DNA from: Pseudomonadota bacterium
Lineage (GTDB): Bacteria; Pseudomonadota; Gammaproteobacteria; JAKAQQ01
Direction of reading: 5' to 3'
Length of the DNA: 41,342 bases
Assembly: GCA_021798795.1 (NCBI GenBank)
Contig: JAJZBR010000010.1
Span: 1 to 41,342, forward strand
Shown here: in pieces, positions 13,056-21,495 of the stretch
Layout of the letters: each line of letters begins with the position of its first letter
Position numbering within the stretch: the stretch's first letter is position 1
Notes under the pieces: model-generated
What the model saw: the letters and a program-made list of their open reading frames with translations, nothing else
Databases searched by the model: none
What the model was told of the DNA's origin: nothing
Program-made: the position numbers and the translations under genes

Positions 13056-13283
13056 ATGCTTCATCGCCACCTCAACCATGAGCGCTTCACCCTCGCCGCT
13101 ATCGACGACGTGATCTCACGCGGTCGGTGGCAGGATTGGGCGGAACTACGGCGGGCGGCTTTGTCCGACCGCGCCCTGCTCGACAAAGTGGAGCGCGTGT
13201 GCCGCCCTTACGTCTCCGACCCCTATGCTCAACGCCATCACTTCTGGATGCACTATGCCGAAGAACACCGCACCGCTCCCTGA
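13056..13283 (+). CDS. Small protein upstream of AbiEii-like gene, possible antitoxin
   Basis: A 75-residue protein starting MLHRHLNHERF. It is predicted all-helical with no membrane segment. I do not recognise the family. The 3' end overlaps the AbiEii-like gene by 29 bases, the arrangement of two-gene toxin-antitoxin modules where the small gene comes first. It does not look like a typical AbiEi antitoxin, which is longer and has a winged helix. A GTG at 13044 could add four residues but lies within the third direct repeat. The antitoxin role is inferred from position only. Confidence 0.6.
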   Translation: MLHRHLNHERFTLAAIDDVISRGRWQDWAELRRAALSDRALLDKVERVCRPYVSDPYAQRHHFWMHYAEEHRTAP

Positions 13284-13980
13284 CTGGGAACTCGTCTTGT
13301 CTTCTGCCGCACGGCTCCAGCGCATCCTGCCAGATGCCGTGTTGGTTGGGGGAACCGCCTCGGCAATCCACGCCGAACACCGCTTCTCCCATGACGCCGA
13401 CCATGTGCTGACCGATCTGTGTCACCGCTTTGACGAAGTGCTGGCCGAGCTTGAATCGGTCGCTGGCTGGAAAACGGCCCGTGTGCAGCGCCCCGTGCAA
13501 ATCCTTGGCAGCCTCGACGGCATCGAAACCGGGGTTCGCCAGCTTGTTCGGGATGAACCATTGGAAACGGCTGTGGTGGACTACCATGGGGCGCGAATCA
13601 CCGTTCCGACCGAGCGTGAGATTTTGCGCATCAAGGGGGTGTTGATCCTCAAGCGCAACGCTACGCGGGATTACCTCGACTTCGTGGCTTTGGCCGATCA
13701 CATGGGCGATGAGAGCGTTGCCCATGCGCTGCAATCATTCGACCGGCTCTACCAGCAAGAGAGTGGTGAATCTCCGCTACAGCAGTTGCAAGTCCAGCTT
13801 GCCAACGCGCTGCCCTATGACTTGGAAGAAACTGAACTCAGCGAGTACAAGAACCTCGATCCTCGCTGGCATGACTGGCGGGGGGTTCAAGCGGCTTGTT
13901 CCCACCTCTCAGCCGTCATCTTCGACCGAGTGTGCAATATGGAAGAAGATCGTTCTGATGATTATGGGACGGATCCATGA
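13255..13980 (+). CDS. AbiEii/AbiGii-like nucleotidyltransferase (putative toxin)
   Basis: A 241-residue protein of the DNA polymerase beta-like nucleotidyltransferase fold. The signature is LVGGTASAIHAEHRFSHDADH, that is GG-T followed by HRxSxDxD with both metal-binding Asp present. A later KGVLILKRNATRDYLDF segment matches the Lys and (K/R)DYxD motif of AbiEii-type proteins. In known systems such enzymes are toxins that transfer nucleotides to RNA and are held in check by a partner. I chose MPKNTAPLPDW; an ATG at 13225 lies deeper in the upstream gene. An ISL3-type transposase follows in the same direction 67 bases later, so the pair may be a passenger of that element. Confidence 0.75.
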   Translation: MPKNTAPLPDWELVLSSAARLQRILPDAVLVGGTASAIHAEHRFSHDADHVLTDLCHRFDEVLAELESVAGWKTARVQRPVQILGSLDGIETGVRQLVRDEPLETAVVDYHGARITVPTEREILRIKGVLILKRNATRDYLDFVALADHMGDESVAHALQSFDRLYQQESGESPLQQLQVQLANALPYDLEETELSEYKNLDPRWHDWRGVQAACSHLSAVIFDRVCNMEEDRSDDYGTDP

Positions 13981-14047
13981 ATCCGGCTGGAAGGGTCTTA
14001 GTGGCGTAAGGCTGCTTCGTGGCACATCTGGCAAAGCGCGTCCTGAA

Positions 14048-15445
14048 ATGGCTGCCAACATCCTGAACCTCCCGCAGTACCGGGTGCTGCACGTGGGGGA
14101 AACCAACCACGACTACCACGTTACCGCCGAGCCGGTGGACGTGGCCTCAGTCTGCCCGCACTGCCAGTCCGACCGTCTGACCTCGTGGGGCACCCGCGAG
14201 CAGGTATTCAAAGACATGCCGATGCACGGCAAGCGTGTGGGCATCTACATCGACACCAAGCGGCTGCGCTGCCAGTCCTGTGGCAAGACTTTTTCGCAGA
14301 CGCTGCCTGTGCTTGCAGTGAACCGCATGATGACCGATCGGCTGGTGAAGTGGATCGGGCAACAGGCGTTGAAACGCACTTTCGTCTCTCTGGCCGATGA
14401 AACCGGCGTGGTCGAAGGGACGATCCGCAACATCTTCCGCGGCTACATCAACGAGCTTGAGCAGACCGTCCGCTTCGAGACGCCGAAGTGGATGGGTATA
14501 GACAAAATCCACATCATCAACAAGCCGCGCTGCGTCGTCTCTAACATTCAGAACAACACCATCGTGGACATGCTCCACAACCGTGACAAGGACACAGTTG
14601 AGAAATACCTGTGCAAGATGCCGAACCGGAACCAGGTACAGTACGTAGCGATGGATATGTGGGCGCCCTACCGCGATGCGGTAAGTGTGGTACTGCCCGA
14701 GGCGACCATCGTCATCGACAAGCTCCACGTCGTCAGAATGGCGAACGACGCGATGGAGAAGGCACGCAAAGACTTGCGAGGCGAACTGACGATCAAGCAG
14801 AAGCGCGGACTGATGCACGACCGATGCGTGCTCTTGAAGCGCGAGCGCGACCTGAACGATGAAGAGCGACTGAATCTCGACGGCTGGACGAAGAATTACC
14901 CAGCCTTGGGTGAGATGTACAGGCTCAAGGAGGACTTTTACGGCATCTATGAGGCCGCAACGCCAGAGGACGCCATGCGGCACTACGAGGCGTGGCATAG
15001 GGCCGTCTCGACCGATATCAGACCCTACTTCGCCGAGCTGATCCGCACCTTCACGAACTGGCAGCCGTTCATTCTCAACTACTTCGAGCACCCAGTGACG
15101 AATGCCTACACGGAGTCGCTGAACAGCCTGACTCGGATGATGAACCGGCTAGGCCGGGGCTACTCGTTCGAGGCATTGCGGGCCAAGGTGCTGTTCACCA
15201 AGGGCATTCACAGCCACAAACAGAAGCATCCAAGGTTCGAGCGAAAGCGCGAGCCGGAACCGGTCGCAGCGGGTTATGGCCTGCCGGATGATGCCATCGG
15301 CTACGGCTTGCCGGTGATAGAGAAAGAGCGTCCGATGCGTCCGCCCGAAGCCTACAACCCACACAATCATGAGAAGCTAGAGAAGAACTACGGCGTGGAC
15401 ATTTCAACACTCATCCGCATGATTGAGGCGGGAGAGGATGTCTAG
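14048..15445 (+). CDS. ISL3-family transposase
   Basis: A 465-residue transposase. The N-terminus has a zinc-ribbon (CPHCQSD near residue 37 and LRCQSCGKTF near 77), then a helix-turn-helix (LADETGVVEGTIRNIF). A DDE domain follows with Asp in WMGIDKIHI, Asp in YVAMDMWAPYRDAV and the Glu in a region containing NAYTESLNSLTRMMNRLGRGYSF. The enzyme appears full length for the family. The start MAANILNLPQYRV has no strong ribosome-binding site. I could not match the terminal inverted repeats: GGGTCT at 13993-13998 and AGACCC at 15537-15542 are a possible but weak pair. Confidence 0.9.
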   Translation: MAANILNLPQYRVLHVGETNHDYHVTAEPVDVASVCPHCQSDRLTSWGTREQVFKDMPMHGKRVGIYIDTKRLRCQSCGKTFSQTLPVLAVNRMMTDRLVKWIGQQALKRTFVSLADETGVVEGTIRNIFRGYINELEQTVRFETPKWMGIDKIHIINKPRCVVSNIQNNTIVDMLHNRDKDTVEKYLCKMPNRNQVQYVAMDMWAPYRDAVSVVLPEATIVIDKLHVVRMANDAMEKARKDLRGELTIKQKRGLMHDRCVLLKRERDLNDEERLNLDGWTKNYPALGEMYRLKEDFYGIYEAATPEDAMRHYEAWHRAVSTDIRPYFAELIRTFTNWQPFILNYFEHPVTNAYTESLNSLTRMMNRLGRGYSFEALRAKVLFTKGIHSHKQKHPRFERKREPEPVAAGYGLPDDAIGYGLPVIEKERPMRPPEAYNPHNHEKLEKNYGVDISTLIRMIEAGEDV

Positions 15446-16258: not shown

Positions 16259-16954
16259 TTAGCGGCCCGGAACTTCTCCCCAAAGCACCTTGTGGAGCTG
16301 CAGCTGGAAACGGACCGGCAGACGATCGGCCAGAATCCACTCGGCAAGCTCGCGGGGAGCCAGGGATCCCGAGACCGGAGAAAAAAGCACCTCGACCCTT
16401 CGGGCGAGTCCGTATTGATCTACCATGGATCGGGACCATTCGTAATCGTTGCGATCCGCAATCACGCACTTGACCTGGTCATGCGGTGCGAGGCATGCGA
16501 GGTTTTCATAGCGGTTACGTGTCACCTCGCCCGAGCCCGGAGGCTTGAGGTCGACCACACGGATCACCCGCGGATCGACCTCATCGATCGGCAAGGCACC
16601 GCTCGTTTCAAGCGAAACCAGAAATCCCCGATCGGCAAGACGAGTGAGCAGCGCGAGGGTGGTCTTCTGGGCGAGCGGTTCCCCGCCGGTGACACAGACC
16701 CGCGGGACAGAAAACCCGGATACCCGATCCAGCACCTCATCCTCCGTGAGGAAAATCCCGCCCTTGAACGCATAGGCGGTATCGCACCACACGCAACGGA
16801 GCGGACAACCGGTGAGACGCACAAATACCGTGGGCCAGCCCGTTTCACGAGCCTCTCCCTGGAGGGAAAGGAAGATTTCGCTCACGCGCAGACGTGCCGG
16901 AACCGTTTTTTCCCGAATCCAGGCATGCGCCTTCTTGGCTGCAGCAACGCTCAT
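16259..16954 (-). CDS. queE: 7-carboxy-7-deazaguanine synthase QueE (radical SAM)
   Basis: A 231-residue radical SAM enzyme that converts 6-carboxytetrahydropterin to 7-carboxy-7-deazaguanine. The cluster motif is Cys-x3-Cys-x2-Cys in [11 protein letters not shown] (residues about 50-57), followed by VTGGEPL, the SAM-binding GGE. The N-terminal [10 protein letters not shown] is the family opening. Start and stop of neighbours are tight: it overlaps the cpoB-like gene by four bases and ends two bases before queC. queE-queC after cpoB is the usual gammaproteobacterial order. Confidence 0.96.
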
Positions 16955-17739
16955 GGATGCCCCGTGGATCCTCCCAAGGCGAGCTTGTTGAGCTTTTCAT
17001 GCGCGAGGCGTGCGGAACTCGATTCGGGATACTTCCGCACGACCCTCTCAAGCGTCTTTTTGCCAGCTGCGACCTCTCCCATCGCAAGCTGGATGAGCCC
17101 GGCCTGGAACAAAGCGGCCGGTGCCTTCGGGGATTGCGGCTGGTCTTTAAGCACCCGCAACGAATCCCTGAGCGCACCGGAAAAATCCTGAAGTTGCAGT
17201 TTCGCGGCGCCTTCCCAGTAATCGGCGTTCGCCACGAGCGGGCTTTGCGGGTAACTTTGCCGAAATGCTGAAAATGCCGCTATGGCCGCATGGTAGTGTC
17301 CTGCCTCGACCAGATTGAGGGCACTTTGATAAGCCGTCGTGTCTGTCGCGGCTTCGGAGGCCGGCGTGGTCGTTACCGCAGTCGGCATCGGCGCGGATGA
17401 CAAATCGGCGGCGGCCGATCGCATCTGGCTGAGCCGCCTGTAAACCTGGATCCAGCGTGCGCTTTCCGAATGGCGGAAATGCCGGAGTTCATGACGCAGG
17501 CTCGCGAGAGCGCCATTCAGTTTGCGAATCTCCCCACGCTCGCGCTGGGCCTGGGCGGTGAGTTTGAACAGGCTCCGCCCCTGGAGCACATGTTCGAGAT
17601 GGGCAACCCGCAGAGCGAGTGCATTGATTTTGGTATAGACCGGATCGGTTAGAGGAACGGGCTTGGGCTTCGTGGCGCAGCCGGCTAGCGCGAGCGCCAG
17701 AAGAGGTGGGCCGAGTACGAGAACGATCTGTCTTTTCAT
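16951..17739 (-). CDS. cpoB: CpoB/YbgF-like cell division coordinator with lipoprotein signal
   Basis: A 262-residue protein. The C-terminal half (about 135-255) has TPR-type repeats typical of CpoB (YQSALNLVEAGHYHAAIAAF, ANADYWEGAAKLQLQDFSGAL). The N-terminal part after the signal (about 35-110) is a helical coiled-coil segment, as in the trimerising region. In E. coli CpoB links Tol-driven constriction to septal cell-wall synthesis. The signal ends LALALAGC with Cys21, a clear lipobox, whereas CpoB is normally a soluble periplasmic protein. AGGAGG lies seven bases upstream of the ATG. It directly follows tolB with only 28 bases between, where pal is normally found. It may be a membrane-anchored CpoB variant; see findings. 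Confidence 0.85.
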   Translation of the reverse strand: MKRQIVLVLGPPLLALALAGCATKPKPVPLTDPVYTKINALALRVAHLEHVLQGRSLFKLTAQAQRERGEIRKLNGALASLRHELRHFRHSESARWIQVYRRLSQMRSAAADLSSAPMPTAVTTTPASEAATDTTAYQSALNLVEAGHYHAAIAAFSAFRQSYPQSPLVANADYWEGAAKLQLQDFSGALRDSLRVLKDQPQSPKAPAALFQAGLIQLAMGEVAAGKKTLERVVRKYPESSSARLAHEKLNKLALGGSTGHP

Positions 17740-17767
17740 ATGGCTGCCTCCTGATCCAAGGGGGGGT

Positions 17768-19108
17768 TCAATGGGGCGTCCCGGGAAGATCCGGGCCCCA
17801 TATCGGAGTCGTGACGGAATCGGATGGTCCAAGCGGTATGCGAATGGGCCAGATGGCATGCCCGCGAGTTGAGACGGTCTCGAGGATCCGCTGCCCCCCT
17901 CGCCAGGCACTGAACAGAATCAGTGCACCACCGGGCGCAAAGCTCGGTGAATCATCAAGTGGCCCGGGAGTCAGAACCCGGATGACGCCGGTCTTCAAGT
18001 TCATGCGCGCAATGCGCAGGAGACCCTCCTGCCGTGCGACATACGCCACATACTGACCGGTCGGCGAAACCGCCGGCGCTGCATTGTAATGCCCCTGAAA
18101 GGTCAGCCTGCGGGTCTCACTCGAATGCAGACGCTTCACATAAATCTCGGCGCTGCCCCCGCGATCCGAAGTGAAGGCAATGCGTCTGCCACCCGGGAAC
18201 CAGGCCGGCTCCGTGTTGATCCCGGGCGCACGGGTCAGCATCTCGAGCGACCCACTCCGGAGATTGAGCCGGGCGAGATCGGCATTGCCACCAGATCCGC
18301 TGACCGTGACGAGAAGCGCCTGTCCACTTGGGGTAAATGCCGGTGTTTCATCGAGGCCCGTGCGTGCCAAGACCCGCTGGCGCCGACCGGTTTTGAGGTT
18401 TTGCACATAGATCGCTGGAAATCCGCTTTCGAAGGAGACATAGGCAATACGGTTTCCGCCCGGCGAGAATGTGGGCGAGACGATCGGCTGGTTTGACCGG
18501 AGGATCGCTCGGGCATGATGACCGTCATAGTCGGACACCATGAGCGTGTAGTGATGCCCGAGACCGACTGCCTCGGATTCGACATAGGCGATCCGGCTCG
18601 TGAAGGGAGCCTTCTGACCTGTGAGTTTCTGAAAAATGAGGTCACTCACATAGTGGGCAGCGAGTCGGAGCTGCTTCGGATTCGTGGGCACGGCATAGGC
18701 CAGGACCTGATTCTCGGCGGGCACGTTGTAGAGATGAAAAACGAGAAGCCACCCCAAACCGCCCCGCCTGGGCTGAATATGACCAATCACGAGATAATCC
18801 ATGCCGAGCGCTTTCCAGTTCAAAAAGTTGATCTGGTTCGGACGGGTCGGATGCTGGATGAGATCGTGCCGGTCGAGGGCCTTGAAGAGGCCGGTCCGGT
18901 CGAGGTCATGGGCGATCACGGTCGCAATCGAGACCCCATGCGGCCCCGGTACCCTCCAGGCAAACGGCACGATCGCAATGGGCGTTGCAACCCGGATCCC
19001 CCGGGTGATCTGGATACGAAGGGAGGCCCAGGCTGCCCCTGATCCGATCAGACTCAGGAGGAGACAGATTCCGGTCAACCGCCTCAAGGCAGACAGGTAT
19101 CGGTTCAT
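17768..19108 (-). CDS. tolB: Tol-Pal system protein TolB
   Basis: A 446-residue periplasmic protein. It has a signal peptide (to about residue 29, ending AAWA), an N-terminal alpha/beta domain (about 30-165) and a C-terminal beta-propeller built of WD40-like repeats such as AFTSDRGGSAEIYVKRL and AYVSFESGFPAIYVQNL. TolB shuttles between TolA and Pal during envelope constriction. The chosen ATG lies two bases from the tolA stop; the longer open frame upstream is inside tolA. The C-terminus ends LPGTPH, and no pal gene follows. Confidence 0.94.
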   Translation of the reverse strand: MNRYLSALRRLTGICLLLSLIGSGAAWASLRIQITRGIRVATPIAIVPFAWRVPGPHGVSIATVIAHDLDRTGLFKALDRHDLIQHPTRPNQINFLNWKALGMDYLVIGHIQPRRGGLGWLLVFHLYNVPAENQVLAYAVPTNPKQLRLAAHYVSDLIFQKLTGQKAPFTSRIAYVESEAVGLGHHYTLMVSDYDGHHARAILRSNQPIVSPTFSPGGNRIAYVSFESGFPAIYVQNLKTGRRQRVLARTGLDETPAFTPSGQALLVTVSGSGGNADLARLNLRSGSLEMLTRAPGINTEPAWFPGGRRIAFTSDRGGSAEIYVKRLHSSETRRLTFQGHYNAAPAVSPTGQYVAYVARQEGLLRIARMNLKTGVIRVLTPGPLDDSPSFAPGGALILFSAWRGGQRILETVSTRGHAIWPIRIPLGPSDSVTTPIWGPDLPGTPH

Positions 19109-19110
19109 GA

Positions 19111-19956
19111 TCAGGACCCCGGGTGAAACACGAAGGTGATGTGCGAGCGGAAAACGGCCGGATCGGCCGGCATGGGTAACGGCGATGCGCGGAAAACGGC
19201 AGCCAGGATCGATTGGCGCACGGGTGCCCCTCCATTGCAGTGCCCCACATGGGCATTGAGTACGTCCCCTCCTGCGGCGAGTGTGACCGAAAGCGAACAA
19301 CTCAAGGAGGAGTTCACACCCGGAGGATGGATCCAGGCATTCTCAACCCGATTCCGGATGGCTGCAACCCAGGCGCCCAGTTGGGACTCGCGCCGCAAAG
19401 CCGCTGCAGCGGACTGTCTCGCCCGGAGCCGCGCGAGCGCTTGGGCGCGCGCCGCCCTCGCCTCACGCTTTTTCGCTGCGCGCAACCGGGCCAGCGCATG
19501 AGCGGCCGCCTGCTCCGCAAGCCGGGCGGCGGCCTGACGGGCGGCCATGGCGCGGATGGCACGCTCTTGAGCTTTCTTTTGCGCTTCGAGCCGCGCTACC
19601 GCTTCCTGCTGCATTTCGAGGGCATGGGCCTGCTCGGCTTTGAGAGCCTGTAGTTTCGCTTCCTGAATCCGTTTCTCGGCCCGAGCCGCCGCTGCCTCCT
19701 CTGCGAGCTTCTCGGCCCGCTTCTTTTGCACGAGGGCGCGGGCAGCCTTCCGTTTTGCGTACCCCTTCCACGCTTTTTCAATGGCTGCTCCATTCACCAC
19801 GCGGGCTTGAACGGGATGGATCACCGCATGGGGGCGGCCCGAGCCATGCGTGATGGCGCCCTGAAAGCCGATAAAAAGAAGAGCCAGGACGCATAGATGG
19901 ACCAGGATGGATTGGGTCCAGGCCCAACCCTGTCTCGAACGGCGCGTGATCTTCAT
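19111..19956 (-). CDS. tolA: Tol-Pal system protein TolA
   Basis: A 281-residue inner membrane protein. It has a short basic N-terminus and one membrane segment (about 14-34, SILVHLCVLALLFIGFQG). A long Ala/Lys/Arg/Glu-rich helical domain (about 55-195) spans the periplasm. The C-terminal domain (about 195-281) contains the Cys pair CSLSV...GHCNGG and resembles the TolA/TonB C-terminal fold. It transmits proton-motive energy from TolQR to TolB. The start overlaps tolR by four bases. Confidence 0.92.
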   Translation of the reverse strand: MKITRRSRQGWAWTQSILVHLCVLALLFIGFQGAITHGSGRPHAVIHPVQARVVNGAAIEKAWKGYAKRKAARALVQKKRAEKLAEEAAAARAEKRIQEAKLQALKAEQAHALEMQQEAVARLEAQKKAQERAIRAMAARQAAARLAEQAAAHALARLRAAKKREARAARAQALARLRARQSAAAALRRESQLGAWVAAIRNRVENAWIHPPGVNSSLSCSLSVTLAAGGDVLNAHVGHCNGGAPVRQSILAAVFRASPLPMPADPAVFRSHITFVFHPGS

Positions 19957-20384
19957 GGCTGTCTGTGAGCAGCTCGGGGCTGGGTCATGAGACCGATCCC
20001 ATGTGCGCCGGCACGCTGCAGGAGTACCATTGCCTGAATCACCTGCCCATAAGACGTTCGCTGATCGGCCTTGACCAGCACCGGGGTACCGGGTTCGTGT
20101 CGCAAAACGGCAGCCACGAGCGCTTCGATGATCCGGGGCGCGGACGGCCGCCTCGGGTGGGCCGAGATGTTCAGGAACAGATGACCGATCCGATTGACCG
20201 TGAGGACGATGGGGGTGAGATTCGCGTGGACGGCCAAGGGTTTGGCTGCAGCCTGGGGCAGTCGCACATGAACGCCTTCCTGCAGCAAGGGCGCCGTGAT
20301 CATGAAAATCACGAGCAAAACCAGCATCACATCGATATAGGGCACGATGTTGATCTCACCGAGTACCCGCCGACGATTTCTCAT
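19953..20384 (-). CDS. tolR: Tol-Pal system protein TolR
   Basis: A 143-residue ExbD/TolR-family protein. It has a single N-terminal membrane segment with the essential Asp in YIDVMLVLLVIFMIT (residues about 16-30) and a periplasmic domain to the end. With TolQ it forms the proton-driven motor of the Tol complex. It overlaps tolQ by four bases and tolA by four bases, which suggests translational coupling. Confidence 0.95.
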   Translation of the reverse strand: MRNRRRVLGEINIVPYIDVMLVLLVIFMITAPLLQEGVHVRLPQAAAKPLAVHANLTPIVLTVNRIGHLFLNISAHPRRPSAPRIIEALVAAVLRHEPGTPVLVKADQRTSYGQVIQAMVLLQRAGAHGIGLMTQPRAAHRQP

Positions 20385-21076
20385 CGGCTCTCGCTCCCCG
20401 TACCCAGGGCCGGCTGGTAGCGCTGGAGGACAGAGGTGAACTCATCGACAAAACTGTCCATCCGGTTTTCCAGGCGGATGACCTGGGTCTGATAGCGATT
20501 GTAGGCAATCACCGCCGGAATGGCCGCGAACAACCCCATCGCGGTGGCGATGAGCGCCTGGGAGATGCCAGGTGCCACCATGGAAAGGGTGGCTTGCTGC
20601 ACATTGCCGAGTGCATGGAAGGCCGTCATGATGCCCCAGACGGTGCCGAAAAGGCCGACATAAGGACTGGTTGAACCGACCGTCGCGAGAAAAGGCAACT
20701 GCTCCTCGATCCGGTCGAGCTCCCGTCGCTCGACGGCCATCATGCTCCGGCGGGCCCCATCGAGTGCCGCTGCGGGAGTGCCTAAACGAAGCAGCCTCGC
20801 GTATTCGCGGTACCCGGTCTGGAAGAGGGATTCGAAGATACTGGGTTCGGGCTCGTTTTCGCTGATCTGGCGATAGAGTTTTCCGAGATCCGTGCCCTGC
20901 GTTTCGTAGCTTTTTTCGAACTGCCGTACCCCGATCCACACCTTGCGGAAAATGGCCCGCTTCTGAAACATGACAGACCAGGACGTGACCGATGCGGCCG
21001 CGAGCAACAGGAGCACGAGTTTGACGATCCAACTCGACTCGAGAACGAGATGCCAGAACGATAAATGGGTGGTCAT
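20381..21076 (-). CDS. tolQ: Tol-Pal system protein TolQ
   Basis: A 231-residue ExbB/TolQ-family inner membrane protein with three membrane segments (about 15-35, 130-155 and 165-190) and the conserved stretches FLATVGSTSPYVGLFGTVWGIM and GISQALIATAMGLFAAIPAV. It forms the channel part of the Tol proton motor. Gene overlaps of four bases occur on both sides (ybgC and tolR). Confidence 0.96.
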   Translation of the reverse strand: MTTHLSFWHLVLESSWIVKLVLLLLAAASVTSWSVMFQKRAIFRKVWIGVRQFEKSYETQGTDLGKLYRQISENEPEPSIFESLFQTGYREYARLLRLGTPAAALDGARRSMMAVERRELDRIEEQLPFLATVGSTSPYVGLFGTVWGIMTAFHALGNVQQATLSMVAPGISQALIATAMGLFAAIPAVIAYNRYQTQVIRLENRMDSFVDEFTSVLQRYQPALGTGSESR

Positions 21077-21495
21077 GGATCAAGCGCCCTCAGCAAGGTT
21101 TCAGGAATGGGTTTGGGACGGAACGAATCGGGTCCCACCGCAACCAGGTGGATCGAGCCCTCACAAATCGCCGTTCCGCCCATCCGGACGACCGGCTGAT
21201 CGAGCCTGAGACTGACCGGCCGCATGGATTCGACCCGTACGCCGACTTCAAGTTCATCATCGTGATGGGCAGGATGGCGGTAGCGGACATTGACCTCAAC
21301 CACGACAAAAAGCAGGTCGAGCTCGGTGGCCAGCCGTCTCACCGACCATCCGAGGCTCCTCAGCCACTCGGTACGCGCCCGATCCATGTAGCGCAGGTAA
21401 CTCGTATGGTATACGACCCCCGCGGCATCCGTATCCTCGTAATAGACCCGGACCCGGTGCTGGAATGCCGTCTTTTGCCTCTTCGACCCACTCAT
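21073..21495 (-). CDS. ybgC: Acyl-CoA thioesterase YbgC (hotdog fold)
   Basis: A 140-residue hotdog-fold thioesterase. The motif [20 protein letters not shown] carries the catalytic Asp and the helix start typical of the YbgC/4HBT family, followed by [10 protein letters not shown]. It hydrolyses acyl-CoA or acyl carrier substrates in the cytosol and is regularly the first gene of tol operons. It overlaps ruvB and tolQ by four bases each. Confidence 0.94.

Follow-up and report, generated by a model that had tools for sequence, protein, structure and literature searches.

Results

The tol operon of the window

The stretch of DNA analysed here, in the following called the window, is 41,342 nucleotides long and carries on its minus strand the genes ybgC, tolQ, tolR, tolA, tolB, cpoB and queE (Table 1). 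This order had been proposed in a preliminary description of the locus, and it is confirmed by NCBIfam models, with TolR marginally below its cut-off; tolQ, tolR, tolA and tolB are thus all found together in the window, by Pfam as well as NCBIfam models. The genes and their order are like those of the Tol-Pal system of E. coli (ybgC-tolQRAB-pal-cpoB), with pal as the exception and with queE next in the window. The likeness extends to the proteins, in that TolQ, TolA, TolB and CpoB/YbgF pass equivalog models which TolR slightly misses. There are two differences from E. coli: tolB and cpoB have no pal between them, and CpoB has a lipoprotein signal.

Table 1. Features of the tol operon in the window, and the pal loci of six relatives
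Feature	Position	Strand	Evidence
ybgC, acyl-CoA thioesterase	21073..21495	-	TIGR02799 143.9 bits, cut-off 141.35
tolQ	20381..21076	-	TIGR02796 254.8 bits, cut-off 221
tolR	19953..20384	-	TIGR02801 125.1 bits, slightly below cut-off 127.3; ExbD/TolR PF02472 76.9 bits
tolA	19111..19956	-	TIGR02794 81.4 bits, cut-off 59.45
tolB, 446 aa	17768..19108	-	TIGR02800 396.5 bits, cut-off 343.15; TolB_N PF04052
tolB-cpoB spacer, 28 bp, with AGGAGG ribosome-binding site; place of pal in most of the class	17740..17767	-	sequence and class survey
cpoB/ybgF, ATG start, 262 aa, lipoprotein signal peptide	16951..17739	-	TIGR02795 108.2 bits, cut-off 90.1
CpoB signal peptide through Cys21 (lipobox)	17677..17739	-	translation MKRQIVLVLGPPLLALALAGC
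queE	16259..16954	-	TIGR04349 338 bits, cut-off 300
Relocated pal genes of relatives	L060:18690-19352, L061:1948-2613, L062:12724-13392, L063:9418-10068, L064:6503-7153, L065:10061-10732
Tricorn-like gene beside pal	L060:15135-18431 and counterparts in L061-L065

That tolB and cpoB are separated by so short a gap, with no pal in it, is borne out by the coordinates and by a Pal profile search in six frames. Within the spacer, AGGAGG stands directly ahead of the ATG of cpoB. When the six frames of the whole window are searched with a Pal profile specific to the order, no Pal-like protein is found, the best match having an E value of 0.15.

The N-terminus of the CpoB protein, MKRQIVLVLGPPLLALALAGCATKPKP, has the form of a lipoprotein signal, with LAGC as lipobox, the cysteine in position 21 and Ala at +2. 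CpoB of the window is thus predicted to receive a lipid. By the rule known from E. coli, Ala at +2 gives no inner-membrane retention signal, which Asp would do, and the predicted destination of the protein is the outer membrane. The tetratricopeptide (TPR) part of the protein, residues 133-256, is matched by the solved CpoB/YbgF chains 6g5s and 2xev, and residues 42-111 match the trimerisation coiled coil PF16331 with 27.6 bits, below the cut-off of 30.1. Apart from these TPR and trimerisation matches, the Pfam and NCBIfam family scans gave no peptidoglycan-binding domain, from which follows that this CpoB could not tether to peptidoglycan in the way that Pal does.

Gene order and the position of pal in the order

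The order was sampled with nine genomes, G000-G008, from one family and three genera. Each of the nine has cpoB as the next gene after tolB, without pal between them, the genes of G007 lying on two contigs, and in the eight contiguous cases the spacing is 28, 26, 26, -4, 22, 23, 22 and 21 bp. Alignment of the nine CpoB proteins shows that the lipobox cysteine is invariant and that it is followed in every case by a conserved segment, VPL[TS]DPVY. The invariance of the cysteine means that the lipobox with Cys21, as first read from the window, is real and not a matter of chance. Since both the tolB-cpoB junction without pal and the lipobox are present in nine genomes out of nine, they are fixed in the order and no accident of this genome.

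Pal is encoded at another locus in six of the nine genomes, where it is recognised by TIGR02802 with 118-126 bits; the equivalog cut-off of this model is 125.35, which one of the six exceeds and the other five slightly miss. The genomes with pal are 94, 96, 89, 94, 86 and 85% complete, and those where it is not found are 80 (this one), 73 and 65% complete. In each of the three relocated Pals that were scanned, TIGR02802 is the top NCBIfam model and the OmpA domain PF00691 is matched with 57-64 bits. All six have the lipobox cysteine and the Pal-type OmpA motif in an alignment, and the Pal of G002 matches solved Pal chains. They also have a C-terminal tail with two invariant cysteines, which measures 47-51 residues when counted from the NRR motif onwards. 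By the same measure, the tails of Pals in the class (100 of 105 measured) have a median of 10 residues and a maximum of 19.

The neighbourhood of relocated pal is also conserved, in that pal is divergent from a tricorn-like gene in all six relatives that have it, across three genera. The product of this gene, about 1,100 aa long and with an apparent signal peptide, consists in G002 of a PD40 propeller, Tricorn_C1, PDZ_Tricorn and an S41 peptidase, and its propeller is TolB-like, with 93 bits to TIGR02800. In the same genome, mfd and a gene for a CsiV-family protein come after the tricorn-like gene. The CsiV-family (peptidoglycan-binding) gene, at L060:10657-11592, lies between an mtnP-like gene and mfd.

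A contig scan returned 11 loci, eight of them on contigs of unclassified Proteobacteria MAGs that resemble the known members of the order with 50-81% identity.

Gene order and CpoB signals in the class

Across the class, presumably Gammaproteobacteria, 124 genomes were searched, and TolB was found in 116. When G000 and G003 are set aside as members of the order, and G036, G054, G057 and G104 are left out because of a partial match or matches under the cut-off, 110 regions downstream of tolB remain. In the stretch read, pal is found downstream of tolB in 105 of the 110 regions, and tolB followed by cpoB without pal occurs in none of them. From this follows that a split which concerns pal alone is rare in the class. 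One region, L090, is cut by a contig end. Four others (L153, L166, L182 and L196) have TolB but neither pal nor cpoB downstream, and these may include other split loci.

CpoB was detected in 102 of the 110 regions; in L117, L162 and L177, where pal is present, it was missed by the search, and CpoB-like starts are recognised by eye. With a revised simple lipobox rule, which as a positive control recovered 99 of 105 Pals, a lipobox is present in 11 of the 102 CpoBs (nine with the first rule), of which L171 is doubtful, and in all 11 cases pal is in the operon. The view that CpoB normally has no lipobox thus agrees with the majority of CpoBs in the class, of which 91 of 102 are without one, but lipoprotein CpoBs have been described in the available text of PMC12204202. 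The occurrence of lipobox CpoBs with pal in place means, further, that lipidation of CpoB is neither caused by the departure of pal nor dependent on it. To exemplify, the CpoB of L135 (L135:659-1462), from outside the order, has a lipobox and the same DPVY segment, and here pal remains between tolB and cpoB.

In a tree of the TPR part of 111 CpoB sequences, the nine members of the order form one clade with support 0.993. The place of this clade among the other CpoBs is unsupported, the neighbouring nodes having values of 0.30-0.36, so that the tree gives nothing on where lipidation arose. A search with the glycine-zipper family PF13488 gave no match and is uninformative.

The missing pal of this genome

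Family profile searches of the whole 1.76-Mb assembly, which is 80% complete, gave no OmpA domain and no Pal, so that no homologue of Pal is found in the rest of the genome either. The question is then whether the gene is absent from the cell or from the assembly, and this can be judged from what else is missing. A 19.8-kb stretch of G002, a relative of the same genus, reaches to a little beyond pal, and a search of this genome with it gave no match at the DNA level. In G001, the remaining genome of the genus, parts of 7.7 kb and 7.6 kb of the same stretch are matched at 71-72% identity. Of the adjoining 19.9 kb of G002, just two short matches are found here, both on one 3-kb contig. Two genes, mfd and acpS, are present on this stretch in G002 and on the matching contigs of G001, and neither was found in this genome by protein-family search. 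The single match to the mfd model here, with 354 bits, covers the helicase part in a frame of 714 aa and is read as RecG. AcpS is essential in well-studied bacteria, and the absence of acpS therefore makes a gap in the assembly or the bin far likelier than a loss. With mfd, acpS and nearly all of the surrounding 40 kb missing as well, the absence of pal is most simply put down to a gap in the assembly.

The two other genomes without pal have contig ends near the gene: a contig of G001 terminates inside the tricorn-like gene that adjoins pal, and in G007 a contig has its start about 5.8 kb away from where pal would be.

We infer that pal is present in this strain too, in a part of the genome that was not assembled and at the locus of its relatives. 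The suggestion that pal sits elsewhere, one of three that had been made from the window, is in this way supported, by a second pal locus which six of nine members of the order share and which is wholly missing from this assembly. The combination that had been named beforehand as a refutation, a normal pal elsewhere and a CpoB that is regularly a lipoprotein in relatives, is what the order shows; for this genome the presence of pal is deduced from its relatives.

Alternatively, pal may have moved here to some other place than in the relatives, on a contig that was not assembled. One finding speaks for such a move and against the shared locus: a permease homologous to the neighbour of pal in G003, G006 and G008 is present in this genome, on contig C72, and pal is not beside it. 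The identity of this permease is 52-55%, to be compared with 61-66% between the other two genera, and it is for this reason probably a paralogue. As the tricorn-like neighbour is common to pal in six relatives from three genera, and the whole tricorn-like/pal stretch is what this genome lacks, a separate position is very unlikely.

A real loss of pal from this species, with lipidated CpoB taking over its role as outer-membrane anchor, is highly improbable. Such a loss would account for the absence of Pal and of any OmpA-domain protein from the 1.76 Mb, but so does an assembly that is 80% complete and lacks the entire neighbourhood of pal, with mfd and acpS. The same lipobox CpoB is, moreover, fixed in relatives that keep Pal, six of them in this sample, and a CpoB with no match to a peptidoglycan-binding domain could not take over the tether.

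The remaining early suggestion, that the signal peptide and lipobox of pal were joined to cpoB when DNA between tolB and cpoB was deleted, can draw on the absence of pal at exactly this place and on the apparent likeness of LAGCAT in CpoB to VSCAT, ASCAT and AGCAS in the relocated Pals, but its probability is close to negligible, for lipobox signals of this type are generic, CpoB continues after the cysteine into its own VPL[TS]DPVY in all nine genomes, the related DPVY lipobox CpoB of L135 still has pal ahead of it, and lipobox CpoBs with pal in place recur (11 of 102).

Discussion

The results make it highly probable that a split Tol-Pal system has been inherited across an uncultured order, with tolQRAB and a lipoprotein CpoB in the operon and Pal at a second locus. 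In such a system the operon would encode the TolQ-TolR-TolA motor, TolB and a CpoB predicted to be anchored in the outer membrane, while Pal would be supplied from the second locus, divergent from the tricorn-like protease gene. The set of proteins would then be that of an ordinary Tol-Pal system, the parts of which are encoded at two places. By analogy with E. coli, from which the division of labour among the parts is taken, TolQRA would drive TolB, TolB would still mobilise Pal, and Pal would remain the tether between outer membrane and peptidoglycan. CpoB would not work as a soluble periplasmic protein but would be held in the outer membrane by its lipid.

Tol-Pal components at two distant places are known from published split loci, and to this extent the present case is like them. 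The available text of PMC12204202 describes tolQRAB apart from pal-cpoB in P. arcticus, L. longbeachae and S. fumaroxidans, and tolQRA apart from tolB-pal-cpoB in A. avenae. The difference here is that pal alone is apart and that cpoB stays with tolQRAB, a type which is not named in the available text of PMC12204202. For CpoB, the same source, in its available part, gives an outer-membrane lipoprotein signal in 20% of 70 proteobacterial and in 28 of 34 non-proteobacterial proteins, and puts forward a lipoprotein as the ancestral form of CpoB (PMC12204202). These are the same TPR protein with a lipoprotein signal, and nothing essential is different, except that in the present order the lipobox is fixed throughout and followed by the conserved VPL[TS]DPVY. 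As both lipidated CpoB and split tol-pal are published, as far as the available text of PMC12204202 goes, the locus is a lineage-stable variant that is largely explained and largely precedented. The part that seems new is modest, and consists of the order-wide split of pal alone and the C-terminal tail with two cysteines that relocated Pal carries.

With this, the locus no longer counts as an example of Tol lacking Pal, and it illustrates how a gene missing from a draft genome can mimic loss. The order-wide split of pal alone, combined with a CpoB predicted to be lipidated, is at the same time a natural setting for the question whether anchoring of CpoB and co-expression of Pal with TolB matter for division. 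One may imagine that Pal has been placed outside Tol expression control and is co-regulated with the periplasmic tricorn-like protease and its TolB-like propeller, that this protease and the two-cysteine tail would adjust the abundance or turnover of Pal, and that lipidated CpoB would keep cell-wall coordination at the outer membrane; we regard this whole scheme as unlikely.

Further along the window, next to queC, the frame at 13225-13980 is nucleotidyltransferase-like and the one after it, at 13709-15445, reads as an ISL3-type transposase, both labelled by eye from their translations.
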